Of a DNA stretch of 64,000 nucleotides, positions 9,950-25,087 are shown piece by piece (within the stretch, counting starts at the first letter, position 1; each line of letters starts with the position of its first letter). The position numbers and the translations under genes were made by a program. This stretch comes from Desulfovibrio sp. A2 (GTDB taxonomy: Bacteria > Desulfobacterota > Desulfovibrionia > Desulfovibrionales > Desulfovibrionaceae), in the NCBI RefSeq assembly GCF_000226255.1, contig NZ_AGFG01000030.1, forward strand, positions 62,001-126,000. Direction: 5' to 3'. The notes beneath the pieces were generated by a model. It was not told the DNA's origin. It saw nothing but the letters and a program-made list of their open reading frames with translations, and ran no database searches.

Positions 9950-10103
9950 AGCGGGCAGTTGCCTGCCCCCGGGCTGACCATCATTCGGATAGAGGCAGCG
10001 GATCGCTGCTTATCATCGGCCGGCGCATCGCCGCACGATGCGAAGGTCAGGCGTTTGTCGTGCATCCCTTTCACTGCCAAGAACCTGTCCAAGGAGGACA
10101 CGC

Positions 10104-10421
10104 ATGGCTGAAGTCACTTACAAGGGCAAGAGCTTCGAAGTCGATGAAGACGGCTTCCTTCTTCGCTTTGATGACTGGAGCACCGAGTGGGTTGAATTCG
10201 TGAAGGAATCCGAAGGTATCGCGGACATCACCCCCGATCACCAGAAGATCATCGACTTCCTGCAGGACTACTACAAGAAGAACGGCATCGCCCCGATGGT
10301 TCGTATCCTCTCCAAGAACACCGGCTTCAAGCTGAAGGAGATCTACGAACTGTTCCCCTCCGGCCCCGGCAAGGGCGCCTGCAAGATGGCCGGCCTGCCC
10401 AAGCCCACCGGCTGCGTGTAG
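10104..10421 (+). CDS. dsrC: Dissimilatory sulfite reductase partner DsrC
   Basis: DsrC carries the sulfur taken from sulfite reductase DsrAB as a trisulfide between its two C-terminal cysteines, and passes it to the membrane DsrMKJOP complex. It is the best single marker here for sulfate reduction. The 105-residue protein has the conserved C-terminal arm with CKMAGLPKPTGCV, giving both redox cysteines including the penultimate one. ATG 10104 follows a strong AAGGAGGA. It is monocistronic: a long leader lies upstream and a terminator immediately downstream. Confidence 0.97.
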   Translation: MAEVTYKGKSFEVDEDGFLLRFDDWSTEWVEFVKESEGIADITPDHQKIIDFLQDYYKKNGIAPMVRILSKNTGFKLKEIYELFPSGPGKGACKMAGLPKPTGCV

Positions 10422-10445
10422 TCCATACGGCCCATTGTTCATCGG

Positions 10446-10475
10446 AAGGGCGGGAGCTTGCTCCCGCCCTTCTTC
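10446..10475 (+). terminator. dsrC terminator
   Basis: A perfect 11-bp stem AAGGGCGGGAG / CTCCCGCCCTT with loop CTTG, followed by CTTCATTTT. It sits 25 nt after the stop. Confidence 0.85.
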
Positions 10476-10577
10476 ATTTTGATGCGTTTCCCGGAAGCGG
10501 GGCGCGCGACACACGCCCGCTTCGGCGCTTGTCGTCGGCAGGCGCCTGCGCGGCGACGTGCCCGGAAAACCGGCACG

Positions 10578-10613
10578 CAAGAAGGGCGGGAGCTTGCGCT
10601 CCCGCCCTTCTTG
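10578..10613. terminator. Second, near-identical hairpin (bidirectional terminator)
   Basis: A perfect 16-bp stem with loop TTGC. Its core GAAGGGCGGGAGC matches the dsrC terminator 130 bp upstream. It lies between dsrC and the convergent small gene. Confidence 0.6.
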
Positions 10614-10698
10614 ATTTGCGGTGGCACGCCCGGCCAGTTCGGGCGCGCCGGTTGCGGGCTTCGGACTGCGAAGCGGGTGCGGGTGAGACCGGCCGAAC

Positions 10699-10971
10699 TC
10701 AGTGTTCCGTGCCGGCCTCGGCGGCGTCGAACAGCGTGTTCAGCGCCTCTTCGCGGCACAGGACGCTCGACGCCATGGCGATGCTGAACGTCGAGTGGGC
10801 CTTCTTCCACAGGGAAAGTATCTGTTGCACGGAATGAACCATGGAGACCAGCACCGATGCAGGCACGATGAACGCGCCGTCCGGCGTCCGCTCCAGTCCG
10901 TCCAGCGATACGGAAAGGCCCGTCAGCTCCTTGCCCACGTTGCCCAATAGACCATCAATGTCATGCTTCAC
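10699..10971 (-). CDS. Hypothetical protein, 90 residues
   Basis: I do not recognise a family. From a GTG start the protein is 90 residues, with balanced composition and a likely helical middle (SVLVSMVHSVQQILSLWKKA). The end is acidic (FDAAEAGTEH). There is no signal peptide. The frame continues upstream to 11523, but that part reads as the shadow of the opposite-strand gene, so the GTG was chosen. It is convergent with dsrC. Confidence 0.5.
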   Translation of the reverse strand: MKHDIDGLLGNVGKELTGLSVSLDGLERTPDGAFIVPASVLVSMVHSVQQILSLWKKAHSTFSIAMASSVLCREEALNTLFDAAEAGTEH

Positions 10972-11101
10972 GTTGCGAACCCCGTTGTAGGAACTAGGCG
11001 TCGCGCGCGGCACGCGCCGACACCCGTTACGGTCTAGCAGGGGGCGCGACCGCCGGTCATTTATATTTTCCCCCGTCCGCGCCGTGCGGGAGCGCCCGCA
11101 C

Positions 11102-11130
11102 TTGACGCAAGCCACGCCGCGCAATACACA
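11102..11130 (+). promoter_or_regulatory. Candidate promoter of the 101-residue gene
   Basis: TTGACG, a 17-nt spacer, then TACACA. The predicted start near 11137 would leave only about 6 nt of leader before the ATG at 11143. Confidence 0.45.
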
Positions 11131-11142
11131 GGGCAATACGTC

Positions 11143-11448
11143 ATGTTCGATTACGCAAACGCCACCACCGACGCCATGTCCTGGCTCGCCGCCCTCTCGC
11201 CCCTGAGCGAGCAGGACCTGTGCGACCTGTGCCTTGCCCTGCGCACGCGCGGGTCCGGCCAACGCTTTCGCTGCACCCAGGACGCAAGCCTGCTGCTGCT
11301 TGAAGCCCAGGGGGCGGACACCCCGCTGCTGCTGCTTTCCGAGCGGGCCGCCCGCAACCTGCTGGACCATCTGGTTTCCGGCTACCTGCGCGACAAGCCG
11401 CGCGGGCTGCGCACCTGGCACGCCCGCGAGTACGGCGGGCACGACTAG
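11143..11448 (+). CDS. Hypothetical protein, 101 residues
   Basis: No family recognised. The protein is rich in Leu and Ala (LSPLSEQDLCDLCLALRTR near 19, then a LLLLEAQ stretch) and probably all-helical and cytoplasmic, with two Cys in an LCDLCLA pattern near residue 27. No good Shine-Dalgarno precedes the ATG, which fits the very short predicted leader. It is divergent from the 90-residue gene. Confidence 0.55.
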   Translation: MFDYANATTDAMSWLAALSPLSEQDLCDLCLALRTRGSGQRFRCTQDASLLLLEAQGADTPLLLLSERAARNLLDHLVSGYLRDKPRGLRTWHAREYGGHD

Positions 11449-11606
11449 GCCCCGCCCGGTCCACTGGCCGCCACCAGCCTCCCGGCCCTGCCCGCTGCCT
11501 GCCTGCTGCCTGCCGATGTTCACTGCCCGTCGCGATTCATCGCGGCCCGGCGCATCTCAGTGACGCGCTCCGCACCCTTCCCACCCTCCCGCTCTGCGCA
11601 CGCGAA

Positions 11607-11633
11607 AGGGCCGCCCCCTGTGGGAGCGGCCCC
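11607..11633. terminator. Hairpin between the 101-residue gene and the YnjB-like gene
   Basis: GGGCCGC pairs with GCGGCCC around CCCCTGTGGGA in the 255-nt convergent gap. It lacks a strong T-run. The gap also holds three tandem copies of a 10-bp ACGGGCCGTC unit at about 11670-11700. Confidence 0.4.
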
Positions 11634-11703
11634 TGCATCGCATCGGCTGACCGATCATGTCCTTGTCATCACGGGCCGTCACGGGCCGTCACGGGCCGTC
11701 AGG

Positions 11704-12966
11704 CTACTTGCGCAGCACCTCGGCATCCCAGCCGCGTTCCAGCGCCTCCAGCCAGTCGGCGGGGATTTCAGGCACGGCCCGCCGGGCCAGCGCATCGGGC
11801 GGCAGGGTGGCCTCCCCCATCTTCACGGCGGCGAAACGGGCGCGCCATGCATCGGGCAGCCGCCCCACCTCGATGGCCGGAAAATCGCCCCACCAGGCCG
11901 GGTCCATCTTGGCCAGCTGCGCCTCGGGCGACAGCAGGAAGTTGGCGGCCACCATGGCCCCCGCCTTGTTCGGCGCGTTGAAGGGAATGGCCACGAAATG
12001 GGTGTTGAAGATGGCTCCGTCGTCCAGCGCCACGGTGCGCACCGTGGCCGGATAGGTGCCATCGTCGATGAGCGCCTGGGCGTGCGCCGGATGGTACGAG
12101 ATGGAAAAGTCCACCTCGCCCCGCGCGAACAGCCCGTCCAGCGTCGCGGCGTCGCGCGGGTAGGCGCGCCCGGCCTGCCACAGGTGCGGGGCGAGACCGC
12201 GCAGCCAGCCCCACAGGGCCGGAGACTTGCTGGCCAGCAAATCCCTGTCCAGCGGGCGCATGTACTGGGCATGCCCGCCGGTGAGGGCGTAGAACGCCTG
12301 CCGGATGAAGGCCGACCCGGTGAAGTCCGGCGGCTGGGGGTAGGTGAACCGGCCCGGATGGGCCTTCACCCATTCGCCCAGTTGGGCCATGGTGCGCGGC
12401 GGCTCCGGCGTGCGGGCCGTATCGTATTCCAGCACCAACTGCGCGCGCCCGTAGGGCGATTCATAGCCGTCCACGGGATAGCCGAAGTCGGTGGCGCTCT
12501 GCACCGGGTCGGTCAGGGCCATGTTGGGCAGGGCCGGGGCATAGGGCCCCCACAGCACGCCGCCCAGGCGCGCGTTGCGAAAGTTCTCGCCGTTGATCCA
12601 CAACAGGTCCATGCTGCCCGTGGCCCGGCCCGCCGCCTTTTCCGCCAGCAGCCGGGTGACGAACACCGGGGCCTCCATGGGCACGCGCACCAGGCTGATG
12701 CCGTAGCGCCGCGCCAGTTCCGGCGCGACGTAGCCATCCACGTAGCGGTTGGCCGTGGCCATGCCGGCGTACATGTGAAAGCGCACCGTGCCGCCGCGCG
12801 CTGCGGCCTCCACATCTGCCCACGGCAACGAGGCCGGGGCGGGCAAAGCCGCCTGCCTTGCCGACACGGTTCCGTTGCCTGCGGCCATGACGTTTCGCGC
12901 CATGACCAGACACAGCAGCAGCGCCAGCGCAACACCGGCCCCCGGGGCCATCCTCGACAGAATCAT
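11704..12966 (-). CDS. YnjB-like ABC-type solute-binding protein
   Basis: A 420-residue exported substrate-binding protein. It has a signal peptide (about residues 1-29, ending VMAAGN), then a type-2 binding-protein body. The segments LLWINGENF and LWGPYAPALPN resemble the uncharacterised YnjB family, whose ligand is unknown. AGGGAGA precedes the ATG. Its start overlaps the stop of the upstream DctP-like gene by 4 nt (ATGA), so the two are translated together. No permease or ATPase gene is nearby. Confidence 0.75.
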   Translation of the reverse strand: MILSRMAPGAGVALALLLCLVMARNVMAAGNGTVSARQAALPAPASLPWADVEAAARGGTVRFHMYAGMATANRYVDGYVAPELARRYGISLVRVPMEAPVFVTRLLAEKAAGRATGSMDLLWINGENFRNARLGGVLWGPYAPALPNMALTDPVQSATDFGYPVDGYESPYGRAQLVLEYDTARTPEPPRTMAQLGEWVKAHPGRFTYPQPPDFTGSAFIRQAFYALTGGHAQYMRPLDRDLLASKSPALWGWLRGLAPHLWQAGRAYPRDAATLDGLFARGEVDFSISYHPAHAQALIDDGTYPATVRTVALDDGAIFNTHFVAIPFNAPNKAGAMVAANFLLSPEAQLAKMDPAWWGDFPAIEVGRLPDAWRARFAAVKMGEATLPPDALARRAVPEIPADWLEALERGWDAEVLRK

Positions 12967-14240
12967 GGAATCTCCCTGGTGATGGGCCTGGCGGGGGAGC
13001 TTGCAGGTGGGCTGGCGGGAATCCCGGCGGCGGGCCTGCCCCCAGGGGCAACGGCCTGCCCCGGCTCCGAGCGGGCCTGTTCCGCCTGCCATGCCGTGGC
13101 CTTCACGGTTTCATACAGCGTGGGGTCCACCCCCACGAAATCCACTACCTCGCGCTCACCAAGGCGCAGTCGTTCGCGCCAGCGGCGCAGCACGGCATCG
13201 TCGGGCACGGCGAACACCAGCCCCCTGGCGCGCAGCGTCTCGCGGGCTTCGGCCTGGGCCTCGGCGGCCTGGCCGCGGGCGCCGTCCACGTGGGCCTCCC
13301 AGGCATCACGCAGCGCGGCGCGCACATCGTCGGACAGCCGTTCCCAGAACACCCGGCTGACCAGCGGCACGTACATGGCAAAGTAGGCGCGGTCCTCGAA
13401 CACGTGCGAAACTCCGTACCGCCAGAGCTGGCCGGACACCGCCGTCTCGTGGGTGGACATGAGGCCGTCGAGGTTGCCGGACCGCAGCCAGTGCGGCAGG
13501 TCGTGCCAGGGCACCACCAGGGGCCGCGCGCCCATGGCGGCCAGGCGCAATTCGTTGGCCGGACCGCCCGCCACGCGGATGCGCAGGCCGCCGAGGTCCT
13601 CGTGCCGCCGCACCGCGCGGTCCACCAGGTACAGGTTGGCGTGCCCCAGCTCCAGCCAGCGCCCCAGCACGGCGACGCGCAGGTTGCGCTCGATGCGCGA
13701 ATCGATGATCCGGCCCGGAGGTCCATCGGCCACGGCCAGGCTGGCGCTGGCTGGCGCGCCATAAAACACCGGCAGCATGAACACGCCGCAGTCGGGCACG
13801 GCTGCATGCAACACCCACGTGCCGGGCAGGGCCATTTCCACGCGGCCCAGATTCAGCGCCTGCAGCACGTCGCGGTCGCGGTACAGGCTGGCGCTGTCAT
13901 GCACCTCCACCCGCAGCCGCCCGGCCAGCCGCCGCTCCACGTCTTCCGCGAAGCGGCGCAGGGCCTTGACCTGGAAGTGCGTGGGGCCGTTCTCCGTGGA
14001 AATGCGCAACACCGGCACGGAGCCACCCTCGGGCGTGCCGGACGGAGAAGCCGCCGTTCCGCCCGCAGGTTCCGCGTTCGGAGATTCCTCGCGGGGGAGT
14101 TCTGCGTTCGCGGCGCGCGCCCACGGCGCGGCGATGGCCAGCACGAGCGCGCACAGCGCCACGGCGGTCACGCGCCCCAGCAGATGCGGCCACGCAAGGG
14201 ACAGGCGCACGGGTACGCGTTGCGGAACAAGGTCGGTCAT
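12963..14240 (-). CDS. TRAP-type (DctP-like) solute-binding protein
   Basis: A 425-residue periplasmic binding protein of the DctP family. A hydrophobic signal helix (about 18-42, ending WARA-ANA) is followed by a low-complexity linker to about residue 70. The DctP body follows: NGPTHFQVKALRRFAEDVE, then the GLRIRVAGGPANELRLAAMGA signature and the helical C-terminus. GGAGG precedes the ATG. No DctQ or DctM membrane subunit is encoded next to it. Instead it is coupled to a YnjB-like binding protein, an unusual pairing. The ligand is unknown. Confidence 0.8.
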   Translation of the reverse strand: MTDLVPQRVPVRLSLAWPHLLGRVTAVALCALVLAIAAPWARAANAELPREESPNAEPAGGTAASPSGTPEGGSVPVLRISTENGPTHFQVKALRRFAEDVERRLAGRLRVEVHDSASLYRDRDVLQALNLGRVEMALPGTWVLHAAVPDCGVFMLPVFYGAPASASLAVADGPPGRIIDSRIERNLRVAVLGRWLELGHANLYLVDRAVRRHEDLGGLRIRVAGGPANELRLAAMGARPLVVPWHDLPHWLRSGNLDGLMSTHETAVSGQLWRYGVSHVFEDRAYFAMYVPLVSRVFWERLSDDVRAALRDAWEAHVDGARGQAAEAQAEARETLRARGLVFAVPDDAVLRRWRERLRLGEREVVDFVGVDPTLYETVKATAWQAEQARSEPGQAVAPGGRPAAGIPASPPASSPARPITREIP

Positions 14241-14305
14241 GCGGCCTCCACGGGAAGGAGCGATAACGGTGCAAACGCACCCCCAGCATGCCACAACCGC
14301 CCGCG

Positions 14306-15169
14306 TCAGTACACCTTTCTCCGCGTGAATTGCCCCCCAAGCACGGTGAAGGTGTTCTCGACGATGAACAGCGCATCGGGGTCCACGGTGAACACCAGTT
14401 CCTCCATGCGCTTCAGCTGCACGTTGTTGGTCACGGTCATGACGATTTCCCGGTCGTCGCCGGAATAGCCGCCCCGCCCTTGCAGAAAGGTGGCCCCCTG
14501 CCCCAGTTCGGTGACCAGGTCGTGCCCGATGCGGCGGCTGTGCTCGGAAATGACGAACACCACCTTGCGCTGGTTGAACAGCGCCAGCACGTAATCCAGC
14601 GTCACCGCCGCGATGAACACCTGGATCAGCGAGGCGATGACCGTGTCCACCGGCATGGAGGCAAGGCATGCCGCGAACAGCACCGCGTTGAAGCCGAAGC
14701 CGAACCGCCCGATGCCGACGCCGAAGCGCCGGTGCAGGATGATGGCCGCCACGTCCAGCCCGCCCCCGGACCCCAGCGAACGCAGCATCATGCCGCCGCC
14801 AGCCCCGCAGATGACCCCGGAGGCCACGGCGGCGTACAACTGGTCGCGCACGCCAAGGTCAACGCCCGCGAACACCTCCGCGAACAGGGTGGTGGCCAGC
14901 ATGCCATACAGGCTGTAAAGCAGGAACCGCCGCCCCACTTGCAGCCAACCCAGCACGAACAGCGGGATGTTGCATAGCAGGTACCACGCCGCCGGGGACA
15001 GCAGATGGGTGTGGTACCACGTCAGCAGCGCGATGCCGTAGATGCCGCCGGTGAGAAACCCGTGCCGGGCCACGATGCCCTGCGCCCCCAGGGCGAACAG
15101 GGCCGCCCCCACGGTAAGCAGCAACAGGTTCCAGCGGACGGAATAGGCCAGTTCCTTCCTGGTGAACAT
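14306..15169 (-). CDS. YitT family membrane protein (DUF2179 domain)
   Basis: A 287-residue protein with five to six membrane helices in the first 190 residues, including a conserved GGIYGIALL and a LGSGGGLDVAAIIL motif. A cytoplasmic C-terminal DUF2179 domain follows (REIVMTVTNNVQLKRMEELV, DPDALFIVENTFTVLGG). The function of the YitT family is not established. GGGAGG precedes the ATG. It stands alone on the strand. Confidence 0.85.
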   Translation of the reverse strand: MFTRKELAYSVRWNLLLLTVGAALFALGAQGIVARHGFLTGGIYGIALLTWYHTHLLSPAAWYLLCNIPLFVLGWLQVGRRFLLYSLYGMLATTLFAEVFAGVDLGVRDQLYAAVASGVICGAGGGMMLRSLGSGGGLDVAAIILHRRFGVGIGRFGFGFNAVLFAACLASMPVDTVIASLIQVFIAAVTLDYVLALFNQRKVVFVISEHSRRIGHDLVTELGQGATFLQGRGGYSGDDREIVMTVTNNVQLKRMEELVFTVDPDALFIVENTFTVLGGQFTRRKVY

Positions 15170-15642
15170 GCAAACCTCCCTGCCCGGCCCGCGCCTGATC
15201 GGCGGGTCGCGGACCGGCATGAAAAAAGGGGCACGCCCAACCTCGCGGCGGCGCGCCCAGCTCAGTTCAGATCACCGCGCACCGCCGTTGCCGTGAAGCC
15301 GGGGGCGCGTTGGCCGTGCCTCTATCCCGGATGCGGCGCGCGGCCAAGGGTGAAGATGCCGCAAGACCCGGGGAGACGCGCGGGGAACGCATGAACGGTG
15401 GCGACTGTGACGGCAGACGCGCGGTTGCGGAGCAGACGAAATGAACGGGGGAACCCGCACGGACCAGGGCAGGCCTGAAGGCGTCAGGATCGGGTGCTCC
15501 CGGACGGAATGCCGCCGGACGGAATGGGGCCGGACGGAGGGAGCAGGCACGAGGCCGCCAACCGGACATGCCGGGCGCGCGGGATGGCAGGGGCGTGAGC
15601 GCGCCGGGCGCGACCGGTCAGGCGAACCGGTCAGGCGAACAG
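15170..15642. other. 473-nt intergenic stretch with short direct repeats
   Basis: No gene supported. It holds three close copies of a CCGGACGGA unit (about 15513-15540) and three copies of a GGTCAGGCGAAC unit (about 15616-15650) that reaches the end of the next gene. Neither looks like a known element. Confidence 0.5.
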
Positions 15643-16191
15643 TCAGGGGCGGTCGCAGTCGGGCCAGACCAGGCCGGGCACTTCCGCCGTCAGGATGCGG
15701 CACAGGGTGCGTCCATTCTCGGCCAGGAACAGCGCCTCGTTTTCCAGGCGCAGACGGTAGCCCGTGGCGTCGATGCGGGCATCGCCGCCCTGGCGGCACA
15801 CCGCCCCCGCGCCGTCGATGGCGGCCTCGAGCCGCGCGGCGGATTCGTTGGCGCGGCGGAACGCACCGCGCAGCATCTCCTGCTTGGGGTCGTTCTCCAC
15901 CAGCAGCAGCCGCTTCATGGCCGCATCGGAACCGGCGCGCGTGCCGCGCACCCGCTTCATGTCGTCGTCCAGGCGTCCGCAGACAGGCCCGGCCGCGTAC
16001 GCGTCGGCAAGCTCCACGCCGGTGCGGATGAACCGTTCCACCACGTCGGCGTCCTGCCCCAGGGTGCTGCCCGCCGCCCGCGCGACAGGACCACCGGCCC
16101 CGAAACCCCACAGCGCCGCGCACAACGCCGCGCATGCGGCGGCCACGCGCAGCCCGCGCTTGCGCGCAAACCCCGCCCCGCCACCGGCCAT
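15643..16191 (-). CDS. Hypothetical exported protein
   Basis: A 182-residue protein with a clear signal peptide (RKRGLRVAAACAALCAALWGFG, cleavage near VARAAG). The mature part is helical with four Cys (VCGRLDDDMKRV, AVCRQGG, TLCRILTAE, PDCDRP), which could form disulfides in the periplasm. I know no family. ATG 16191 gives the better signal peptide; an in-frame ATG at 16230 is possible. The last residues overlap a short direct-repeat tract. Confidence 0.6.
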   Translation of the reverse strand: MAGGGAGFARKRGLRVAAACAALCAALWGFGAGGPVARAAGSTLGQDADVVERFIRTGVELADAYAAGPVCGRLDDDMKRVRGTRAGSDAAMKRLLLVENDPKQEMLRGAFRRANESAARLEAAIDGAGAVCRQGGDARIDATGYRLRLENEALFLAENGRTLCRILTAEVPGLVWPDCDRP

Positions 16192-16375
16192 ATGTAAAGT
16201 TTTGTAAAGATGCGCTGCCATCCAGCCCATCTATATGCCGCGCCCCGCGAAGGCAACCCCCCGCCCTGCCGCGCGAAACGGCACGGCGATGCCGCCCGCC
16301 CTACAACGCAGCAGCCCCCGGCGTAGGGGCGCCGGGGGCCGTGCGTGAGAAGACCTTCAGCGGGAGGAGTTTCGT

Positions 16376-17173
16376 CTACAGGAGACCGATCAGCATGCGC
16401 GTCGCCATGACGAGGAGCAACACGGCGAAGATGCGCTTGAGCTTGGTCACCGGCAGGCTGTGGGCCAACCGGGCGCCAAGGGGGGCCGTGAGCACGCTGG
16501 CGCAGACGATGCCGATCAGAGCGGGGAGGTAAACGAAGCCGAAGGTGTTCGCGGGCAGGCCCTGGGTAGCCAGCCCGTTAACTATGTAGCCCACGGTGCC
16601 GGACACCGCGATGGGAAACCCGATGGCGGCCGAGGTGCCGATGGCCGTATGCATGGCCACGTTGCACCACGCCATGAACGGCACCGACAGCGTGCCGCCG
16701 CCAATGCCCACCAGGCTGGACACCGCGCCGATGACGTTGCCCATGCCGAACATGCCCATGCCGCCGGGCAGTTCGCGCGAGGGCTTGGGCTTGATGTTCA
16801 GCAGCATCTGCGCCGCCACCCAGTACAGGAAGCAGACGAAGAAGCCCTTGAGAAAATTGGTGGAAAGCTGGGCCACCACCCATGTGCCCAGCAGCGTGCC
16901 GGTGATGATGCCGGGGGTGATGCGCCACACCACGTTCCACAGCACCGCGCCGCGCTTGTGGTGCGCCCGGAAGCTGGAAATGGAGGTGAACATGATGCTG
17001 GCCATGGAGGTGCCCAGCGCCAGATGCTGCATGAATTCGTGCGGAATGGCCTGCCATTCGAACGCGAAATTGAGCATGGGCACGATGACCAGCCCGCCGC
17101 CCACGCCGAGCAGCCCGGCAAGGATGCCCGCGATGGCGCCAAGAATCAGGTACAGCGCGAGGGAAAGAAGCAT
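16376..17173 (-). CDS. TauE/SafE family sulfite/anion exporter
   Basis: A 265-residue inner-membrane protein with about eight helices in two repeats. Each repeat holds the family Gly-rich motif (GLLGVGGGLVIVPML near 19 and SSLVGIGGGTLSVPFM near 150). Family members export sulfite, sulfoacetate or similar anions. In a sulfate reducer a sulfur-anion substrate is plausible but not shown. The region between the repeats faces the cytoplasm. GGAG precedes the ATG at 17173; an upstream Pro/Ala-rich extension was rejected. Confidence 0.85.
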   Translation of the reverse strand: MLLSLALYLILGAIAGILAGLLGVGGGLVIVPMLNFAFEWQAIPHEFMQHLALGTSMASIMFTSISSFRAHHKRGAVLWNVVWRITPGIITGTLLGTWVVAQLSTNFLKGFFVCFLYWVAAQMLLNIKPKPSRELPGGMGMFGMGNVIGAVSSLVGIGGGTLSVPFMAWCNVAMHTAIGTSAAIGFPIAVSGTVGYIVNGLATQGLPANTFGFVYLPALIGIVCASVLTAPLGARLAHSLPVTKLKRIFAVLLLVMATRMLIGLL

Positions 17174-17319
17174 GTCTGGCACTCCGCGATGCGGGCATTG
17201 CGCGGCCCGCGAGGTTTCGGCCGTGGCGCGCGGCGACGGGGTTGGCGTCGGGCCGGGCGCGGGTTTGATGGCCCGGCGGCGCGCCATGCGGGCGGCCGCC
17301 GGACCGGATATCCTTCAGG

Positions 17320-17562
17320 ATTGCAAATGAAGATTTTCGTTTGTTGGCGCGGAAAACGAGCCTGCCATGAGGGAGTGCCTCACCCGTTAGGCGAGCACGC
17401 AGTGCGTGTCTTACGGATGAGGACCGCAGCGCGTACTCTTATCGTATTCGACCGAGCCTTAGCCGTTAGGCGAGCGCGTAGCGCGAGTCTTACGGATAAG
17501 GACAGCAAGGCTATGGCAGGCGAAGTTTGACAAAGCCAACAAGTGAAAAGACCATTTGCAAT
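17320..17562. repeat. 243-bp inverted-repeat element with two internal hairpins
   Basis: The ends are perfect inverted copies (ATTGCAAATG at 17320-17329, CATTTGCAAT at 17553-17562). The arms continue for about 50 bp with further exact blocks: TTGTTGGC/GCCAACAA and GCCTGCCAT/ATGGCAGGC. Inside lie two copies of a hairpin unit (17378-17422 and 17457-17501) sharing CCGTTAGGCGAG and GTCTTACGG. One stem pair differs as C-G in copy 1 and T-A in copy 2, a compensatory change. GC content is visibly lower than the flanks. It encodes no protein. It abuts the stop codon of the FMN dehydrogenase gene, so it could also end that transcript. It resembles a MITE or REP-like element. Confidence 0.75.
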
Positions 17563-18581
17563 TACATGCGCAGGGCGTGACGGCCGATGGCCGCAACATT
17601 GGCGCTGCCGGTCAGCACCATGGCCTGCACCAGCTGGCCCTTGATGGAATCCACCAGCATGGTCACCCCGTCCTTCAGCCCGCCCACGGCGGCGATGGAG
17701 AACGGGCGGCCCAGCAGCACGGCGTCGGCCCCCAGGGCCAGCATCTTGAACACGTCCACGCCGTCGCGCACGCCGCCGTCGGCCAGGATGGCGATGCGCC
17801 CCTTCACCGCGTCGGCGATTTCGGGCAGCACCTCGGCCGTGCCGGGGGCATGGTCGAGCACGCGGCCGCCGTGGTTGGACACCACGATGCCGTCGGCGCC
17901 CACCTCAACCGCCAGGCTGGCGTCGATGGTGGTCATGATGCCCTTGAGAATGAACGCCATGCCCTTGGCCTTGACCTTGGCCACAATGCGCGAAAGTTCC
18001 GCCGGGGTCTTGGGGCCCACGGGGCGGCCCATCTTGCGCAGGGTGACGAGGCCTGCGGCGTCGATGTCCATGCCTATGGCCGGGCAGCCCAGTTCCAGCG
18101 CGCGGTCGAGCTTTTCGTCCAGTTCCGCGCCGTCCCACGGCTTGATGAACGGGATGCCCCGCCCGCCCGCGCCGGTGATGGCCGCGAAGCCCGCGTCGAT
18201 GATGAACGGGGGCACGCCGTCGCCGGTGCAGCCGATGATGCCGCGCTCGGCGCAGCCGCCCACCACGGCGGCTGCGTAGTCTTCCTCGCTCACGCCGCCG
18301 CCCATGTTGAAGGACACGCCGCCGATGGGCGCGGCCAGCACGGGCATGTCCAGCGCCATGCCGCACACGGTGGTGGAGGTGTCGGGCTCCTTCACGTCGT
18401 GCACCAAGCGCATGTTCAGGCGCACGGCGGCCAGGGCGTCAAGGTTGGCGGCAAAGGTCGCGCCGGTGCCCAGGCCGCCCATGCCGGGCACCTCGCCCGC
18501 GCAGGCCTTGCCGTTGCAAACCGGGCAGACCCGACAGTAGCCTTTCATCAGTTGGCGTGCCTTGTCGCGAACTTCCTTCAT
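17562..18581 (-). CDS. FMN-dependent alpha-hydroxy-acid dehydrogenase
   Basis: A 339-residue TIM-barrel flavoenzyme of the lactate/glycolate oxidase family. It begins with a Cys-rich segment CRVCPVCNGKACAG (residues about 16-29) that the classical oxidases lack. The active-site region is intact: IVVSNHGGRVLDHAPGT holds the catalytic His and the conserved SNHGGR motif, and ADGGVRDGVDVFKMLALGA binds the FMN phosphate. AGGAGG favours the second of two adjacent ATGs. It is downstream of a FadR-type regulator. Lactate or another 2-hydroxy acid is the likely substrate; which one is not clear. Confidence 0.8.
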   Translation of the reverse strand: MKEVRDKARQLMKGYCRVCPVCNGKACAGEVPGMGGLGTGATFAANLDALAAVRLNMRLVHDVKEPDTSTTVCGMALDMPVLAAPIGGVSFNMGGGVSEEDYAAAVVGGCAERGIIGCTGDGVPPFIIDAGFAAITGAGGRGIPFIKPWDGAELDEKLDRALELGCPAIGMDIDAAGLVTLRKMGRPVGPKTPAELSRIVAKVKAKGMAFILKGIMTTIDASLAVEVGADGIVVSNHGGRVLDHAPGTAEVLPEIADAVKGRIAILADGGVRDGVDVFKMLALGADAVLLGRPFSIAAVGGLKDGVTMLVDSIKGQLVQAMVLTGSANVAAIGRHALRM

Positions 18582-18767
18582 CATGTCCCTCCTTTGCCAG
18601 GCGAACATGGGCGGCGCGGGCCTTGCCCGCACCGGGCGTGCCTCGCCCTGGGCGTCGATGGCGTGATGCGCGCCGGGCGTTCCGGATACGCCGGGCGTTC
18701 CGGACGCGCCGGGGCGCGTGGTGAGTGGTCTTGCCGCCTGCGTGGTCATGCGTGGGTGCTCATGGGG

Positions 18768-19484
18768 TCATTCCCCCGACCATTCGAGGGCTATTTCCTC
18801 GACGTGCAGAATATGTTCGTGCATGGCGCGAAAGGCCGCCTGGGGGTCGCGCGCCTCCATGGCGGCGAGGATGTTGGCATGGGTGGCGACGGCCCACTGG
18901 CGGCGATCTTCGGTCTGCAGGGTGAAGTCCCGGCTGTCGCTGAGAATGTCGTGCAGGCGCGTCAGCACTTCCTGCACCACCGTGTTGCGGGTGGCGCGGG
19001 CGATGATCATGTGGAATTCCACGTCGGCGTCGGAGCCGGTGTTGCCGCCTTCTATCTCGGCCACCTGGGCGTCCAGGGCGCGGCGCAGGGCTGCAAGGTC
19101 GCCGTCGCTGACGTGGGCCGCGGCCAGCGCGGCGATTTGCGGTTCGAGCAGACGGCGGAACTCCAGCACCTCGCGCAGCTTGGCGCGGCGCTGTTCGATG
19201 ATGGCGGCCAGCGGCTCGATGAGCGTTTCCTCGGTGTCGTCCAGCACGTAGGTGCCGTCGCCAAGGCGGCTGGTGACGATGCGCTGCTGTTCCAGCGAGC
19301 GGATGGCCTCGCGCACGCAATGGCGCGAGACCCCGAACAGTTCAGCCAGGCGGCGTTCGGGGGGCAGCTTGTCGCCGGATTTCAGTTCGCCCTTCTCGAT
19401 GAGGTCGCGAATCTGCCCCACGATTTCCTCGTGCAGGCGGATGCGGCGCGCGGGCTTGAAGGCGGGGGTCATCTGCGCTTTCAC
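18768..19484 (-). CDS. FadR-type GntR transcriptional regulator (FCD domain)
   Basis: A 238-residue repressor or activator. The N-terminal winged helix has the GntR signature (LKSGDKLPPERRLAELFGVS, then RHCVREAIRSLEQQ). The C-terminal FCD domain has the metal/ligand-binding pattern (EFRRLLEPQIAALAA, then VEFHMIIARATRN and a later THANILAAM). The GTG start at 19484 has GGGAGGG 7 nt upstream. Two TGGT-N3-ACCA operators lie 47-73 nt before it. It precedes the 2-hydroxy-acid dehydrogenase gene on the same strand, an arrangement like LldR-lldD. Confidence 0.87.
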   Translation of the reverse strand: MKAQMTPAFKPARRIRLHEEIVGQIRDLIEKGELKSGDKLPPERRLAELFGVSRHCVREAIRSLEQQRIVTSRLGDGTYVLDDTEETLIEPLAAIIEQRRAKLREVLEFRRLLEPQIAALAAAHVSDGDLAALRRALDAQVAEIEGGNTGSDADVEFHMIIARATRNTVVQEVLTRLHDILSDSRDFTLQTEDRRQWAVATHANILAAMEARDPQAAFRAMHEHILHVEEIALEWSGE

Positions 19485-19527
19485 GCAACGGCCCTCCCGG
19501 GGCAGTGGGATGCGCGAACGGCTGCAA

Positions 19528-19560
19528 AATTGGTACAACCATTCACTGGTTGAACCAATT
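19528..19560. promoter_or_regulatory. Double FadR/LldR-type operator
   Basis: TGGTACAACCA (19531-19541) and TGGTTGAACCA (19547-19557) are two 11-bp TGGT-N3-ACCA palindromes with centres 16 bp apart. They are nested in a larger inverted repeat, 14 bp per arm with one mismatch. The match to the GntR/FadR-family consensus suggests autoregulation. Confidence 0.7.
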
Positions 19561-19654
19561 CACCCGAACGTGCCCCCGCTGTCAACGAAAATCCGCGCCG
19601 GACGGCGAGCGGCGGGCAAGGCGACGCGGTTACGAAGGGGCCGCAACCGACGGA

Positions 19655-19684
19655 AAAGAAAAGCGCGGCCCGAAGGACCGCGCG
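19655..19684 (-). terminator. Terminator after the arsR-DUF3124 operon
   Basis: Read on the minus strand, GCGCGG and CCGCGC pair around a TTCG-type loop, followed by TTTTCTTTTC. It sits 68 nt after the DUF3124 stop. Confidence 0.75.
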
Positions 19685-19751
19685 ATCATCCCTGAAGCAG
19701 GGACGCAAGATGCGGGTGCGAACCGACGCCGCGCCGCACTTGCGAAACCCG

Positions 19752-20345
19752 TCACCTGGCGTTGCCGACCACCTTTCCCTCGGTGATGAACGAAATGCCC
19801 TGCGACGACACGGTGCCGATCATCACCCCCTGGGCCAGGGGTTGCGACACCTGCGCCGCCGCGCGCCACACCACGATGAACGCGGGGCCCGCGCCGCCGA
19901 GGGTGTCCGATTCCTCCACCACGAACTGGGCCGACCCCAGGGGCGGCAACTGGCGGGGCTCGGTCAGATAGGTGCGCACGGTCTTGCCGTTCTCGTCCAC
20001 GTAGCGCACCTCCATGAGGGTGATGGGGATGCGCTGGTCGGTGTTGCGCACCGAAAGCATGGTGGTGATGTTCAGGGTGCGGCCCCGGTTGCCGTACACC
20101 ACCGAGGAATACACCGGCACGTACACCGTCTGCCCCACGGTCATATCGGCCTGCGCGACCGCCGGAAGGATGCCCGCGCGCGGCATGCCCGTGGGCATGG
20201 GCAGCGCGGCAAGGCCGCAGCACAGGGCGAGGCAGGCCGCCACGCGCAGGGCCAACGTGCGCACCCGGGCGACCGAAACTGCCGGGACGCGGGCGGCAAC
20301 GGGCCGGGACAAAAGGGGTGGGGCCGACTGGTCGGGCTGGGTCAT
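19752..20345 (-). CDS. DUF3124 family exported protein
   Basis: A 197-residue protein with a hydrophobic N-terminal signal or anchor (about 27-48, VRTLALRVAACLALCCGLAA). The body matches DUF3124: GQTVYVPVYSSVVYGNRG, LNITTMLSVRNTD, and FVVEESDTLGGAGPAF. Its function is unknown; the body is probably a beta-sandwich in the periplasm. GGGAGA precedes the ATG. It lies 22 nt downstream of an ArsR-family metal sensor and ahead of a terminator, so it is probably controlled by that sensor. Confidence 0.75.
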   Translation of the reverse strand: MTQPDQSAPPLLSRPVAARVPAVSVARVRTLALRVAACLALCCGLAALPMPTGMPRAGILPAVAQADMTVGQTVYVPVYSSVVYGNRGRTLNITTMLSVRNTDQRIPITLMEVRYVDENGKTVRTYLTEPRQLPPLGSAQFVVEESDTLGGAGPAFIVVWRAAAQVSQPLAQGVMIGTVSSQGISFITEGKVVGNAR

Positions 20346-20367
20346 GGGGCGTTCTCCCGCCGCCGGG

Positions 20368-20865
20368 TCAGCGGCTTTCCTGCACGTGGTCCAGCGCCTG
20401 GCGGAACAGGTGCCGCACGTGGTCGTCATCAAGGGTGTAGAAGGCGTTCTTGCCGTCGCGGCGCACCCGCACCAGCTTGGCCGCGCGCAGCAGGCGCAGT
20501 TGGTGCGAGACGGCCGACTGGCTGTGGCCCACCACGGCGGCCAGGTCGCACACGCACAGTTCGTCGCAGGCCAGCGCCTCGAGAATGCGCACGCGGGTGC
20601 GGTCGCCCAGCAGCCGGAAGGTGGCGGCCAGTTCGGCCATGTCCTCGTCCGGGGCAAGCCGCGCGCGCACCCGCGCGATGACCTCGGTGTGCTCGCAGTG
20701 CTGCTGGCACACCGTGGCGTCGGCAAGATCGGCCCCGCCCGGCGCGGCAACCGCGTCCGGACCGTCGGGCATGCTCGGCGCGCACGCGCGCTTGGCCGTG
20801 CGGCCCGACGTGCGGCCGCCGGTTCCGGCGGCGGGTTGCGTGGCGTCTGTCGCGCTCACTGGCAT
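20368..20865 (-). CDS. ArsR/SmtB family metal-responsive repressor
   Basis: A 165-residue winged-helix regulator. It has an N-terminal Cys/His cluster (CQQHCEH) and a Cys pair on the helix of the ELCVCDLAAV motif; these are the ligands of the CadC-type alpha3N metal site, which binds Cd, Pb or Zn. The recognition helix is SQSAVSHQLRLLRAA. The first 45 residues are low complexity. ATG 20865 has GGGAG close upstream; later in-frame starts are possible. It probably represses itself and DUF3124 until metal binds. No metal exporter gene lies next to it. Confidence 0.82.
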   Translation of the reverse strand: MPVSATDATQPAAGTGGRTSGRTAKRACAPSMPDGPDAVAAPGGADLADATVCQQHCEHTEVIARVRARLAPDEDMAELAATFRLLGDRTRVRILEALACDELCVCDLAAVVGHSQSAVSHQLRLLRAAKLVRVRRDGKNAFYTLDDDHVRHLFRQALDHVQESR

Positions 20866-21018
20866 GACTCCCGCGGCATGCTGCTGCCGCACAGTGTGAA
20901 CGATACCCGGTGCCGCCGCACGCCCTTTCCGGGTGCCGGGGCTTCGGACCATGCCCCAAGGCTACCCGGAACACCGGGGCGACGCAAGGCCCACCCGCCG
21001 CGCCGCAGCGACGGAAAA

Positions 21019-21040
21019 GGCCGGGCGCATGCGCCCGGCC
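21019..21040 (-). terminator. Terminator of the MCP-cheW operon
   Basis: A perfect 22-bp palindrome GGCCGGGCGCA/TGCGCCCGGCC, followed on the minus strand by TTTTCC. Confidence 0.7.
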
Positions 21041-21095
21041 CCGTCGTGTCCTTTTCTGCCTGGCCCGGCTCGCCGCAGGCGGGCCGTTCAGGCGG

Positions 21096-21629
21096 CTACA
21101 TGGCCGCGCCGTCGCCCGAAGCCACGGCGGCGGGCATGGCGTCCTCGCCCGGCAGCGTTCCGCCCACCGCAACACCGCTGGCGGCCAGTTCCTCCACCGA
21201 GAAGATGCGGTTGCCGTCCAGGATGATCACGAAGCCGTCGTTGCGATGGCCCATGCCCCGGATGAAGTCCTGCCGCACGGCGGTGCCCATGCGCGGCGCG
21301 GGCTCCACGGCGTCGGCCGGAATCTCGATGACCTCGCGCACCGAATCCACCAGCGCGCCGATGACGGCGGCCTCGCCCTCCAGCTCGGCCTCCACGATGA
21401 TGATGCAGGTGTTCACGGTGTCCGCCACCGGGTCCATCCCGAACTTGCGCCGCAGTTCCAGCACGGGCACGGCGCGGCCGCGCAGGTTGATGACCCCGCG
21501 CATGAACTCCGGCGTGCGGGGTATGCGCGTGATGGCGGTCAGTTCCAGCACCTCGCGCACGGTGCCGATGTCCAGCGCGAACACCTCTTCGCCAAGGGTG
21601 AAGGTAAGATACTGGCTGGTCTCGTACAT
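21096..21629 (-). CDS. cheW: Chemotaxis coupling protein CheW
   Basis: CheW links chemoreceptors to the CheA kinase. The 177-residue protein has the CheW core: YLTFTLGEEVFALDIGTVREV, then RGVINLRGRAVPVLELR and IGALVDSVREVIEI. A variable Ala-rich tail of about 25 residues follows. GGGAGG precedes the ATG. It is 22 nt after the chemoreceptor gene and shares its transcript, so the two proteins probably work in one array. Confidence 0.93.
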   Translation of the reverse strand: MYETSQYLTFTLGEEVFALDIGTVREVLELTAITRIPRTPEFMRGVINLRGRAVPVLELRRKFGMDPVADTVNTCIIIVEAELEGEAAVIGALVDSVREVIEIPADAVEPAPRMGTAVRQDFIRGMGHRNDGFVIILDGNRIFSVEELAASGVAVGGTLPGEDAMPAAVASGDGAAM

Positions 21630-21651
21630 GCTGCCTCCCAAGGCCCAAGCG

Positions 21652-23631
21652 CTAAAAGCGTTCAAACTCGCTGTCGTCCGCATCCGCGCCCATGTCCAGG
21701 GCGATGTTGCCGCCCTTGCCGGGCACCGCCTTGCGCGGGGTGTGAGCGGCCACGGCGCGCGGGGCCGCGGCGGGCTGGGCGCGACGCGGCGCGCGTACCG
21801 CGCCGCCGTCCATCGAGGCCACGCGGAAGCGCGAGACGGTGGCCTGCAACTGTTCGGCCTGGCTGGAAAGCTCTTCGGACGTGGAGGCCATTTCCTCGGA
21901 GGCCGAGGCGTTCTGCTGGATGACCTGATCGAGCTGGGCGATGGCCTTGTTGACCTGTTCCGCGCCCACGTTCTGCTCGTTGCTGGCGGCGGCGATTTCC
22001 TGCACCAGTTCGGCCGTGCGGCGGATGCCGGGCACCATCTTGGTCAGCATCTCGCCCGCCTGCTCGGCCACGGCCACGCTGGATGAGGAAAGGTCGCTGA
22101 TCTCGGCCGCGGCCTCGCCGCTGCGTTCGGCCAGCTTGCGCACCTCGGCCGCCACCACGGCGAAGCCCTTGCCGTGTTCCCCGGCCCGGGCCGCCTCGAT
22201 GGCCGCGTTGAGTGCCAGCAGGTTGGTCTGGCGGGCGATTTCCTCGATGATGGAAATCTTGGCCGCGATGTCGCGCATGGCCCCCACCGTATCGCCCACG
22301 GCCTTGCCCCCCGCTTCCGCGTCGGTGGCGGCCTGCACGGCGATGGTTTCGGTCTGGCGGGCGTTTTCCATGTTCTGGCGGATGTTGGCGGCCATTTCCT
22401 CCATGGACGAGGAAATTTCCTCGATGGAGGCGGCCTGCTCTGTGGCCCCCTGCGACAGGGTTTCGGCCGATGCGGAAAGCTCTTCGCTGCCCGAGGCCAC
22501 GTTCTCCGCCCCGGCGCGCACCTCGGTGATCACCGAGACAAGGCCGTCCACCATGTCCTTCATGTCGGCGTACACGCCGCGCAGCCTGCCGCCGTCCGCG
22601 TCGAAGGACACGTCCAGGTCGCCCGCCGCGATGCGCCGGGTGACGGCGGCCAGCGCCGCCGGGTCCGCGCCCAACTGGGCCATGACCACCCGGATCAGCA
22701 GCCAGGAGATGGCCACGCCCGCCACCACGGCCACCAGGGCGATGCCCCCGGTCAGCAGTTGGGCCTGCTCGTTGGACGCCTGCACGCGCGGGCCGATCTC
22801 GCGCTGTTCCGCCTCGTAGCTGTTCTGGATGGCGTCGCACGCCTGGGCGATGGCCGGGCCGAGCTTGGCCAGGCGTTGGGTGAACACCGCGTCACGCTTC
22901 AGGGCCGCCGCGGACATGCGCTCGAAGGCCGAGAAATAGTCGGTGCGTTGCTGGTACAGCTCGCGCGCCCGGTCGCGCAGCACCGGGTTGCGCACGTCGG
23001 CGATAAGACGGTTGAACGCCTCGCCCACCAGTATGGCATCCTGCTTGGCCTGTTCCAGCCATTTGACGTCGGTGTCGGCCATCATCTTGACCACGGCCAC
23101 GCGCAATTCCAGCATGGCCCGCATGACCGCCTCCACGCGGGAAGCGCCCACCACGTCGCCTTCGCGCTGCGCCGATTCCGCCAGTTGGGCAAGGGCCTGC
23201 ATGCGCTGCGGCCCCAGGGTGTTCAGGATGGTGATTTCGGTCTGTCGTTCCTGGTCATGCTTGCGCAGTTCGGCCACGCCATCCGTGTACTGGGCAAGCG
23301 CATCGGCCACGGTGGCCAGATGCTTGCGGCGGTCGGGATTCTTGATGGACTTGTCGGCCTCGTCCAGCCCCTTGGCCAATTCCGCGCGGGCCTCCTCGTA
23401 GGAGCGCAGTGCCGTCTCCGACGAGGTGTTCATGAAGCTGAGCACGCCAAGGCGCATCTGGAGCATGTTCGTCATGATGCCCCCGCTCATGAGCGAACCG
23501 CGCGCGGTGCGCCGGTAATCCGTGAAACCGAATGTGGCGTCGGACAACGCCTTGTAGGAAATCCCCCCCATCGCCACCAGCAGCACCAGAACAAGACCGA
23601 ACCCCAGAATCAGCTTCTTGGCCAGCGTCAT
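21652..23631 (-). CDS. Methyl-accepting chemotaxis protein with C-terminal CheR-binding pentapeptide
   Basis: A 659-residue membrane chemoreceptor. Helix 1 is at about 7-27. A large helical periplasmic sensor follows to about 295, of the size of a helical bimodular (HBM) domain. Helix 2 ends in WLLIRVV, followed by HAMP and a long cytoplasmic coiled coil. The hairpin tip is [21 protein letters not shown]. The extreme C-terminus is EFERF after a basic flexible linker. This fits the x-[FYWH]-x-x-[FYWH] pentapeptide that tethers CheR/CheB. The ligand is unknown. It is first in an operon with cheW. Confidence 0.93.
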
Positions 23632-23787
23632 GTGTCTTCTCCCGTCCGGAACGTTCACGTCGCGGCGCAGCGTTCGGCCGCGCCGCGGCCCGGCCCGCTT
23701 CTGCCCTGTTTGTCCAGCTCCGCCCTATTCCACCCAGAACAGCCTAATCATGCCCCTGCCAGTGCAACATGATTTTCCCCGTATCGG

Positions 23788-24108
23788 TCAGACGGGCGCA
23801 ACGCCGCACAGCCTGGCCGCGATCCGCACGGCCTGCGCCTCGTCGGGCGCGGCCAGCAGCTCCTCGAACAACTCCCCCGGCAGTACCGCCGGATCGTAGT
23901 CCAGCGTGAGCGTGGAGGTGAAGACGTCGAAACGGGTTCCGCGCAGCCCGGGCCACGTTTCGGGCGTCAGGGCGCGCAGTTGCGCGGCGGACGGATGCCG
24001 CAGGACGGCAAGGTCCACCTTCAGCCGCAACCGGCCTGGAGTATGATCGGCAATTTTCAGAAATTTCCTGAGGTCCGCGAGTACACGTGGATTCATATTT
24101 TGTTGCAT
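23788..24108 (-). CDS. HMA_2-like small protein
   Basis: A 106-residue cytoplasmic protein. It opens NPRVLADLRKFLKIADHTPGRLRLK, and a second half holds FDVFTSTLTLDYDPAVLP. This pattern (a strand ending in HxxPGRLRLK and a later YDP) matches the HMA_2/heavy-metal-associated-related family found with Fe or Cu handling proteins. It lacks the CxxC of true HMA domains. Either ATG 24108 (AGGAGA very close) or ATG 24096 could be the start. Confidence 0.6.
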   Translation of the reverse strand: MQQNMNPRVLADLRKFLKIADHTPGRLRLKVDLAVLRHPSAAQLRALTPETWPGLRGTRFDVFTSTLTLDYDPAVLPGELFEELLAAPDEAQAVRIAARLCGVAPV

Positions 24109-24371
24109 TCTCCTGTCATGCCCGACCGTGCGGAGCACCCTACCCTACTCCCCGGTCGGCGCATGCGCAAGCAGATGCAGGAGAATGTTCGGCATGCCCC
24201 CGCATGCGGGAGCCTATACGTCGCCGCGCCGAGGTGCCGCTCTCGCCCCTGCATGACGGACGCGACCAAAAGCCACGATGCGGGGCGTCGGCCGGGCCGC
24301 GCGGCATTCCGGCGTGGCATCCCGGCAGGGGGGGGGCGGCATGGGGGGCGGCAAGACGCGCAGGCGCGGCT

Positions 24372-24800
24372 TCAAGAGGCGTCGTGCGATCCGGGCGCGT
24401 CGCGGTCCGCGACCGGCGGCGGGGGAACAAGGCGGCGGCGCTGCGCCACCGCAGCCACCTTGCGCAGCATGGAATCCATGTCGAACGGAATCAGGATGTC
24501 GTCGTCGATGCCGCGCTTCATGCACTGGATGGAAAGCCGCACCTGGTCCGGCCGGACCATCAGGATCACCCCCATGTGCGGGGCCAGTCTGCGCGCGGAA
24601 TCCAGCAGGCCCAACGGACAGGGCGGCCCTTCGGCGCAGCCGAACAGAAAGACGCTGAAGCCCCCCGTGGCCAGCAGGCGGCGCGCGTCGTCCGGCTCGG
24701 CCGCCACCACGCAGGCGCTGCCCCCGCCCCCCAGCAGTTCGGCCACGTGCCGGGCGAAGGCGGTATCGGTATCGAACACCAGCACCGAGGTCATCCACAT
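24372..24800 (-). CDS. Pseudo-receiver domain protein
   Basis: A stand-alone receiver-like protein of about 142 residues. The start MTSVLVFDTDTAFARHVAELL fits strand 1 with its acidic pair. At strand 3, where the phosphorylated Asp should be, it reads FSVFLFGCAEG with no Asp. The strand-5 Lys is also lost (DDDILIPFD). It therefore probably does not accept phosphate. The tail is Pro/Arg-rich. The RBS is weak (AAAGG) and follows a strong leader hairpin (24816-24857). A sigma-54 promoter with upstream repeats lies ahead. Start is 24800 or 24794. Confidence 0.6.
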   Translation of the reverse strand: MWMTSVLVFDTDTAFARHVAELLGGGGSACVVAAEPDDARRLLATGGFSVFLFGCAEGPPCPLGLLDSARRLAPHMGVILMVRPDQVRLSIQCMKRGIDDDILIPFDMDSMLRKVAAVAQRRRLVPPPPVADRDAPGSHDAS

Positions 24801-24815
24801 GGTGCACCGGCCTTT

Positions 24816-24857
24816 GGCCTGTCCGGCGAAGGGGCTCGGCCCCGGCCCGGACAGGCC
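24816..24857 (-). promoter_or_regulatory. Leader hairpin before the pseudo-receiver start
   Basis: GGCCTGTCCGG and CCGGACAGGCC pair (11 bp) around an inner GGGGC/GCCCC stem. It ends just before the only RBS-like purine run. It could hide or time translation, but has no T-run of a terminator. Confidence 0.45.
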
Positions 24858-24949
24858 GGGCCGGTTCCGGACATCGCTCCGCCAGGCAGAGGTTGGACAT
24901 CTGGAAACAGTGCTCACGCGCATCCGCTGCGGTGGCTCGTGAAATACAT

Positions 24950-24965
24950 AGCAAACACTGTTCCA
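24950..24965 (-). promoter_or_regulatory. Sigma-54 (-24/-12) promoter
   Basis: On the minus strand the sequence is TGGAACAGTGTTTGCT, with the invariant GG (24963-24964) and GC (24951-24952) separated by exactly 10 nt. It faces the pseudo-receiver gene with a leader of about 140 nt. An AAA+ sigma-54 activator gene lies 700 bp upstream. Confidence 0.65.
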
Positions 24966-24979
24966 GCAATATTTAGCAC

Positions 24980-25087
24980 AATGTTGCGGCATGTTGGAGG
25001 CGACACGATCTGACGACGCAAGGCGGGAGCTGGCGCGGAGCGCTGCGGAAACACGCGTAACGCATCATTTTGCAACATCTTGCGACA
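24980..25087. promoter_or_regulatory. Two repeat sites upstream of the sigma-54 promoter
   Basis: Site 1 (24980-24997, minus) reads CCAACAT-N3-GCAACAT. Site 2 (25071-25087, plus) reads GCAACAT-N3-GCGACAT. Both have a 10-bp repeat period, and they face opposite ways. Site 2 is about 105-120 bp upstream of the -24 element, the usual distance for a sigma-54 activator site. Confidence 0.45.

Follow-up and report, generated by a model that had tools for sequence, protein, structure and literature searches.

The element at positions 17320..17562 of the window (the whole stretch of DNA analysed, 64,000 nucleotides) was found to be one member of a dispersed family whose copies share a common core with three slots and have variable yet above-chance complementary ends. 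The stop-codon abutment, mentioned only in passing in the original prediction, is the main feature of this family, and 84 of the 89 distinct copies abut the in-frame stop of the gene that reads into their native 5' end. The best reading is a MITE-like, BOX-like modular element with an unusual stop-codon placement. In its full form, a genus-wide non-autonomous MITE-like modular palindrome that inserts by transposition at the TA of stop codons and has a mild function there, this reading was given about an even chance. Among the family members the window copy is old and eroded, and it is the evidence from the family as a whole that carries the argument.

Layout of the window copy

The native orientation of an element was defined as the one read from its upstream gene, which places the window copy on the minus strand. 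The features of the locus were as follows:

17562..18749, minus strand: upstream gene, an FMN-dependent dehydrogenase family protein (PF01070)
17562..17564, minus strand: TAA stop of the dehydrogenase gene, whose final base also begins the inverted end
17320..17562, minus strand: whole element, slot state 110 (repeats and parse into core parts)
17553..17562, minus strand: native 5' inverted end, ATTGCAAATG as read on the minus strand
17534..17555, minus strand: outer part of the native 5' arm, core part R2 (core-part parse)
17532..17533, minus strand: slot 3, empty here and holding a module of ~72 nt in other copies
17513..17531, minus strand: inner part of the native 5' arm, core part R1 (core-part parse)
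17456..17512, minus strand: slot 2 hairpin module (repeat search and parse)
17434..17455, minus strand: central segment C (core-part parse)
17377..17433, minus strand: slot 1 hairpin module (repeat search and parse)
17332..17376, minus strand: native 3' arm, core part LA (core-part parse)
17320..17329, minus strand: native 3' inverted end (repeat search)
16376..17287, minus strand: next gene, TauE/SafE sulfite exporter family (PF01925), longest ORF

The element sits between the dehydrogenase and TauE/SafE genes, both on the minus strand. Orthologs of the dehydrogenase gene end at the same point as the window gene, and the protein was 95% identical to its counterparts in Nitratidesulfovibrio liaohensis and N. 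oxamicus, so the source is probably a member of Nitratidesulfovibrio. Comparison with orthologs suggests that the TauE/SafE gene more likely starts near 17173.

The structural details given in the original prediction were recovered. The ends, ATTGCAAATG at 17320-17329 and CATTTGCAAT at 17553-17562, match exactly as inverted copies, and further arm blocks pair at 17334-17348/17535-17549 (87% complementary) and 17360-17368/17513-17521 (100%). The two predicted internal hairpins correspond to a 52-nt direct repeat (17377-17428 and 17456-17507; 85% identical, spacing 79), and the compensatory double change was present as claimed, with C17381/G17419 in one copy and T17460/A17498 in the other. The GC content of the element (53.1%) was below that of the 500 bp on each side (66.6% and 69.8%), and the element adjoins the dehydrogenase stop with a 1-base overlap (TAA 17564-17562, minus strand). 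Folded as RNA, it gave z values of -7.2 on the plus strand and -5.3 on the minus strand, and on neither strand did any of the 200 shuffles match it.

The family end TAGGGGCTGTTTC was unrecognisable in the window copy, which lies outside the 46 copies with recognisable ends. Its core differed from that of L032 at 9/83 positions, and its arms differed from those of the N. oxamicus ortholog likewise at 9/83. The lost ends and the arm differences make the window copy a poor witness for recent movement.

A long plus-strand ORF without ATG (16460-17530), which runs across the element antisense to real genes, was treated as spurious. The Rfam covariance models gave no family, their single match (17242-17279; 13.7 bits, E 2.3) being sub-threshold and outside the element. 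A plasmid or phage origin was rejected, as the element had no match in the plasmid or phage collection, and so was a tRNA-linked insertion, as positions 10000-25000 of the window hold no tRNA. Elsewhere in the window, at 49808-49875, a decayed copy follows a stop codon; what survives is an end remnant, TAGGGCCTGTTTCC, with part of a slot-3 module.

Core, slots and modules of the family

In the genome of the window (G000), at least 56 pieces matched the 281-bp query (40 scored among 89 candidates), and the sequence is thus not single-copy. The original prediction had also proposed looking for many copies in Desulfovibrionaceae genomes. Among 59 genomes, including that of the window, all 8 genomes of the genus matched strongly, with 84-134 first-look candidates (candidates, not counted copies) in each. 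Only 4 of the 51 genomes of other genera gave matches, which were weak and confined to the inner hairpin region. These weak matches (L119-L122, L130, and L131) come from four other genera of the same bacterial family, and they suggest that the module may predate the composite element. A literature search, in which subscription journals were covered in part, returned no recognisable description of this element family.

A total of 118 loci were parsed into a left arm, a centre, and two right-arm parts, and 89 distinct copies were kept: 39 from G000, 33 from G007, and 17 from G001-G006. The dropped loci were 17 duplicates and 12 whose arms were weak within the searched stretch (L008, L020, L022, L023, L026, L119-L123, L130, and L131). 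Among the latter, L008 is a real copy, L119-L122, L130, and L131 are the matches in other genera, and L123 was missed because the parse covered a fixed stretch only. Because the copies were collected by their resemblance to two queries, the set holds too few of the decayed or divergent ones. Three of the dropped loci (L020, L022, and L023) represent a variant with other inner arms and the same slot-1 module, and the variant at L023 occupies the same stop codon as a standard-form element in G007 (L178).

The core is a near-palindrome of ~150 bp with three fixed slots between its parts. Each slot is either closed (0-5 nt) or filled by a module of ~52, ~56, or ~72 nt, and the palindrome ranges from ~150 nt to an upper size of ~330 nt. 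All eight slot combinations were seen among the 89 copies (000, 42; 110, 19; 111, 15; 001, 6; 010, 3; 011, 2; 100, 1; 101, 1), in proportions that are influenced by the choice of queries; in the window copy the first two slots are occupied, and a short copy (L019) parsed poorly at slots 1 and 2. One hairpin core, CCGTTAGGC...CTTACGG, is common to the modules and, by reading, is reversed in slot 3. Both ends were recognisably TAGGGGCTGTTTC-like in 46 of the 89 copies.

One module per slot was the rule, with no boxB-like tandem array. The exception was L201 (12971-13324), in which a fourth module lies inside the slot-3 module and extra modules lie in the centre. A scan of 41 stretches gave 45 module-like matches inside the element intervals as scored and 18 outside, two of the latter (L222) belonging to L008 and two (L220) to the variant L022. 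Long, unrelated hairpins whose arms are G-rich, GGGGAAGGAACCTTTT being one example, also carried modules in their loops (L219:6620-6859, L208:9761-9818, L215:5466-5520, and L212:14072-14309), and these hairpins are probably further nested repeat families. The stray modules in hairpin loops and the nested module in L201 make the modules look separately mobile, and they seem to favour hairpin apices or internal loops. No GTAG/CGTC tag was seen by eye at the hairpin end in 12 modules per slot.

The inner core differed by 0-2% in 5 of 7 ortholog pairs, with the flank ortholog being the closest core; the mean core difference among copies within a genome was 14% (G000) and 12% (G007). Slot states differed in four of five near-identical pairs (L118/L173, L024/L184, L021/L117, and L025/L132), which means that modules came or went while the copy itself stayed in place. 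Gene conversion of the whole element was rejected as the source of these changes for 5 of the 7 pairs because the flank ortholog was the closest core (in two of the five, the other genome offered only 3 catalogued copies), and short-tract exchange limited to the conserved centre may lie behind them. L138/L177 gave a tie for the closest core, and L007/L190 were nearer to other copies. In six ortholog pairs pooled, counting only pairs with both copies intact, 12 of 660 core sites differed, compared with 85 of 701 downstream. Strong general purifying selection on the core is not claimed, as several pairs diverge: L009/L201 at 4/83, the window and L032 as given above, L195/L008 at 9/82, and L007/L190 by 14.3% (L015/L218 differed at 1/83).

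Stop codons, empty sites and mobility

The stop test counted in-frame stops that end long, GC3-biased ORFs. Such a stop was found near the native 5' reference point in 83 of the 89 copies, 80 of them with the stop 4-16 nt before it and 3 (L113, L133, and L147) with the stop 1-5 nt inside it, and the 84th copy (L190) was added by reading. The same test at the opposite end gave 0/89 in the first range and 2/89 weak cases at +5. The stops at the 83 copies were 66 TAG, 11 TAA, and 6 TGA. The five exceptions were L118 and L173, which are orthologs, L185, L188, and L194. TAG was also the commonest stop of crudely called genes (343 of 619; TGA 181, TAA 95) in the high-GC stretches (the window and L199-L238).

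Among 19 ortholog pairs, 8 were element-free with the stop kept at the same place (L126/L233, L129/window, L144/L215, L155/L209, L170/L230, L171/L223, L181/L231, and L014/L206), 2 had another insert at the same stop, 2 were empty at a non-stop site, 1 held a stub, 5 were filled, and 1 was unreadable. At the cleanest site (L155/L209) the TA is single when empty and stands on both flanks when filled, and it is doubled at L170/L230 as well. A target-site duplication, which the original prediction had proposed to look for, is suggested mainly by these two sites, as the far-side TA is still readable in only 14 of the 46 copies whose ends could be recognised. The base that follows the far TA position was G or A in 40 of these 46, as expected of a former TAG or TAA.

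Decay was visible as well, with some copies collapsing from inside to short hairpins. At the window locus, N. oxamicus retains the full element, two relatives have short hairpins built from outer arm pieces, and in one relative only ATTGCAATTTGCAAT remains after the stop. Insertion into pre-existing palindromes was not supported as the source of the variable paired ends, since L031/L033 retain pieces of the family arms, which points to decay.

Under the best reading, a copy would transpose into a stop codon (usually TAG) at its TA and duplicate that TA, which would leave the stop intact; the transposase would be provided in trans or would have been lost in the meantime. The modules would be hairpins with a mobility of their own, settling where an existing hairpin has its apex or an internal loop. 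With its start at the stop codon, the element's hairpin probably has a mild effect on translation termination or on the mRNA 3' end, and the opposite orientation would be lost through selection against carrying the stronger-folding strand in mRNA. Such a mild action is suggested by what the accessible part of PMC12306157 reports for E. coli REPs, which lower translation when <16 nt after a stop (Liang 2015, cited therein); only ~11% of the REPs predicted there fall within 15 nt of one. Against the best reading, a symmetric TA/CTAG target predicts no single orientation, five copies are not at a stop in this orientation, four transposase Pfam models gave no cognate enzyme, and with a cruder greedy gene set a gene ended at the native 5' end for only 41 of 56 elements (fetched stretches).

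A purely selfish, functionless MITE that targets TA/CTAG, with a stop placement that is simply what selection tolerates, is on the unlikely side. CTAG is often a stop here (102 stops, 114 intergenic, and 55 coding among 271 sites in 842 kb, by crude gene calls and with the elements' own CTAGs in the intergenic count), a gene is left unharmed by insertion there, and harm would have to be assumed for the other intergenic sites. The next gene (n=55) was co-directional in 33 and convergent in 22 cases, which resembles the background (392 and 202) as such a MITE would have it and indicates that copies are not simply at operon ends; old copies also collapse freely at the window's own locus. However, a CTAG target minus its coding sites predicts only 47% at stops, against the 84/89 observed (P ~7e-22), and the single orientation is left unexplained by tolerance alone. 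The pneumococcal BOX and RUP, read as tolerated parasites in the accessible part of PMC3049150, favour convergent gene pairs and not the stop codon itself.

The 84/89 at stops in one orientation is hard to reconcile with a symmetric DNA target. It is improbable, on the present evidence, that insertion itself is directed to stops in the orientation of the mRNA (transcription- or translation-coupled), with the three docking slots as a combinatorial 3'-end tag; if so, slots would be filled and emptied precisely, tagging the 3' ends of many genes per genome. The family offers a natural way to ask if mRNA direction can be read by transposition or by selection, and its three-slot on/off variants at orthologs would allow the effect of a stop-codon hairpin on translation, termination, and mRNA decay to be measured.

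An IS630-, IS5- or Y1-type mobilizer was rejected, being absent or rare and never beside element sequence. G000 carried no Y1 transposase (PF01797), and of the seven relatives only G001 and G004 had fragments of one. In the 5 genomes searched, DDE_3 (PF13358) was absent and DDE_Tnp_1 (PF01609) had one match each in G000 and G007, and the one PF13586 match (G007) fell at the same place as the PF01609 match. No element sequence was found near the four transposase loci, and the four Pfam models returned no cognate transposase with matching ends. The Y1 fragments (L252 and L253) span open frames of 74 aa and 75 aa, one of them interrupted by a TGA, and no element lies nearby. The end pattern matched 23 places in the own genome, of which 11 were catalogue copies and the other 12 were end remnants (several at stops), shortened copies, or chance matches, with no insertion sequence. 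IS5-type elements target YTAR.

The original assignment to MITEs agrees with the dispersed short copies (89, with a core of ~150 nt), the inverted ends, the element-free orthologous sites, and the doubled TA at the cleanest site, and the element fits the general description of a non-autonomous MITE in all but the cognate transposase and, in part, the target-site duplication. The alternative assignment, to a REP-derived device, held in part: the inner hairpins fit as short palindromic high-copy modules, but they are not RAYT-linked REPs, as Y1 matches in the own genome numbered 0. The element also differs from REPs in that its unit is a palindrome of ~150-330 nt and that RAYT genes are missing; the accessible part of PMC3733652, on GTAG/CGTC REPs, does not mention Desulfovibrio.

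By analogy, the design would work most like the pneumococcal BOX, with modules that resemble REPs and a placement that recalls the E. coli REPs near stops. BOX of Streptococcus pneumoniae (boxA-boxB-boxC), likened here by description only, is likewise dispersed, hairpin-forming, and modular. It has a variable tandem boxB array, whereas the present element has three separate on/off slots and a stop-codon placement. ERIC elements carry internal insertions of ~70 bp. Integron attC sites lie after a stop codon in one orientation and have variable but complementary ends, and in this the element may be likened to them; attC sites stand in cassette arrays, whereas the element is dispersed at unrelated genes with TA doubled at its cleanest site. 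As described in the accessible part of PMC3049150, the inner modules of BOX come and go between strains. Prokaryotic MITEs such as ERIC, Correia, RUP, and QMITE2 are non-coding with inverted ends like the element, and some lie in 3' regions and can alter transcript fate; strict one-orientation stop placement and a three-slot on/off design go unreported for them in the accessible parts of PMC10969869 and PMC5896051. The one-orientation stop-codon placement is the part that existing categories leave unexplained.

Pairing, strand and the RNA question

The 42 module-free copies were scored on a 52-pair structure. Pairing was found in 86.9% of the cells, compared with 35-44% in slid versions, over which the structure is favoured because it was taken from the consensus of the same sequences, and 80.1% in shuffled ones. 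Double changes were seen in 34 pairs (shuffled mean 21.3), and 0 of 500 shuffles reached the observed pairing. In the outer stem of the 89 cores, Watson-Crick pairs made up 64%, compared with 49% with rows shuffled, and the variable ends therefore match within a copy.

The claim that the fold is selected was upheld as to the covariation, which is far above the controls, but not as to the transcribed strand. On the sense strand of the 89 cores, departures from Watson-Crick pairing showed no excess of G-U (216) over A-C (200). The inner stem had 36 G-U and 77 A-C departures and the outer stem 180 and 123, respectively, 75 of the outer G-U being one consensus G-T pair. The sense strand folded worse than its complement in 42/42 (000), 19/19 (110), and 14/15 (111) copies, a comparison that covered these three states (76 of the 89 copies).

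An RNA device under selection in the sense mRNA, such as a terminator, stability or RNase III element, is accordingly disfavoured by the equal departures and the weaker sense fold in 75 of 76 copies, and is now very improbable, although the pairing, the double changes, and the position at the 3' ends of genes speak for it. An intrinsic terminator was rejected, with 0 terminator-like sites in 16900-17900 and a T4+ tract within 20 nt past the native 3' end in 9/89 copies; terminator-like hairpins beyond the element were found in 10/89. The lack of an Rfam family also counts against such a device. Two-sided Watson-Crick changes between orthologs were confined to one of seven pairs (L007/L190, with 5 pairs changed; 0 in the six others).

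The structured strand could instead be the antisense one (the plus strand of the window), with single-stranded DNA in the element's own mobility, or an antisense RNA, setting the orientation. It is known that attC sites and REPs use one strand. The better plus-strand fold in 75/76 copies and the inner-stem excess of sense A-C over G-U (77 vs 36), which is reversed on the plus strand, agree with this, but the inner excess comes largely from a few edge pairs while the overall counts are equal, the own genome is without a Y1 transposase, and no promoter-like site for an antisense transcript was found in 16900-17900. Such a role of the antisense strand is decidedly unlikely.

The absence of a G-U excess and the weaker sense fold mean that template switching, a DNA-level constraint or an antisense constraint explains the covariation at least equally well, and the family cautions that covariation in a palindrome need not imply a functional RNA. 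Replication template switching, which would copy one arm of the palindrome onto the other without RNA selection, is a possible source of the covariation, held tentatively at somewhat under even weight, and can be combined with the best reading as well as with a selfish MITE. It has been proposed as a mechanism for hairpin stems that yields double changes without RNA selection (PMC8794818, accessible part). The equal G-U and A-C departures speak for it, as do the multi-base ends that depart from the family consensus identically on both arms, although the single-pair G-U steps (L031, window locus) fit ordinary compensation too.
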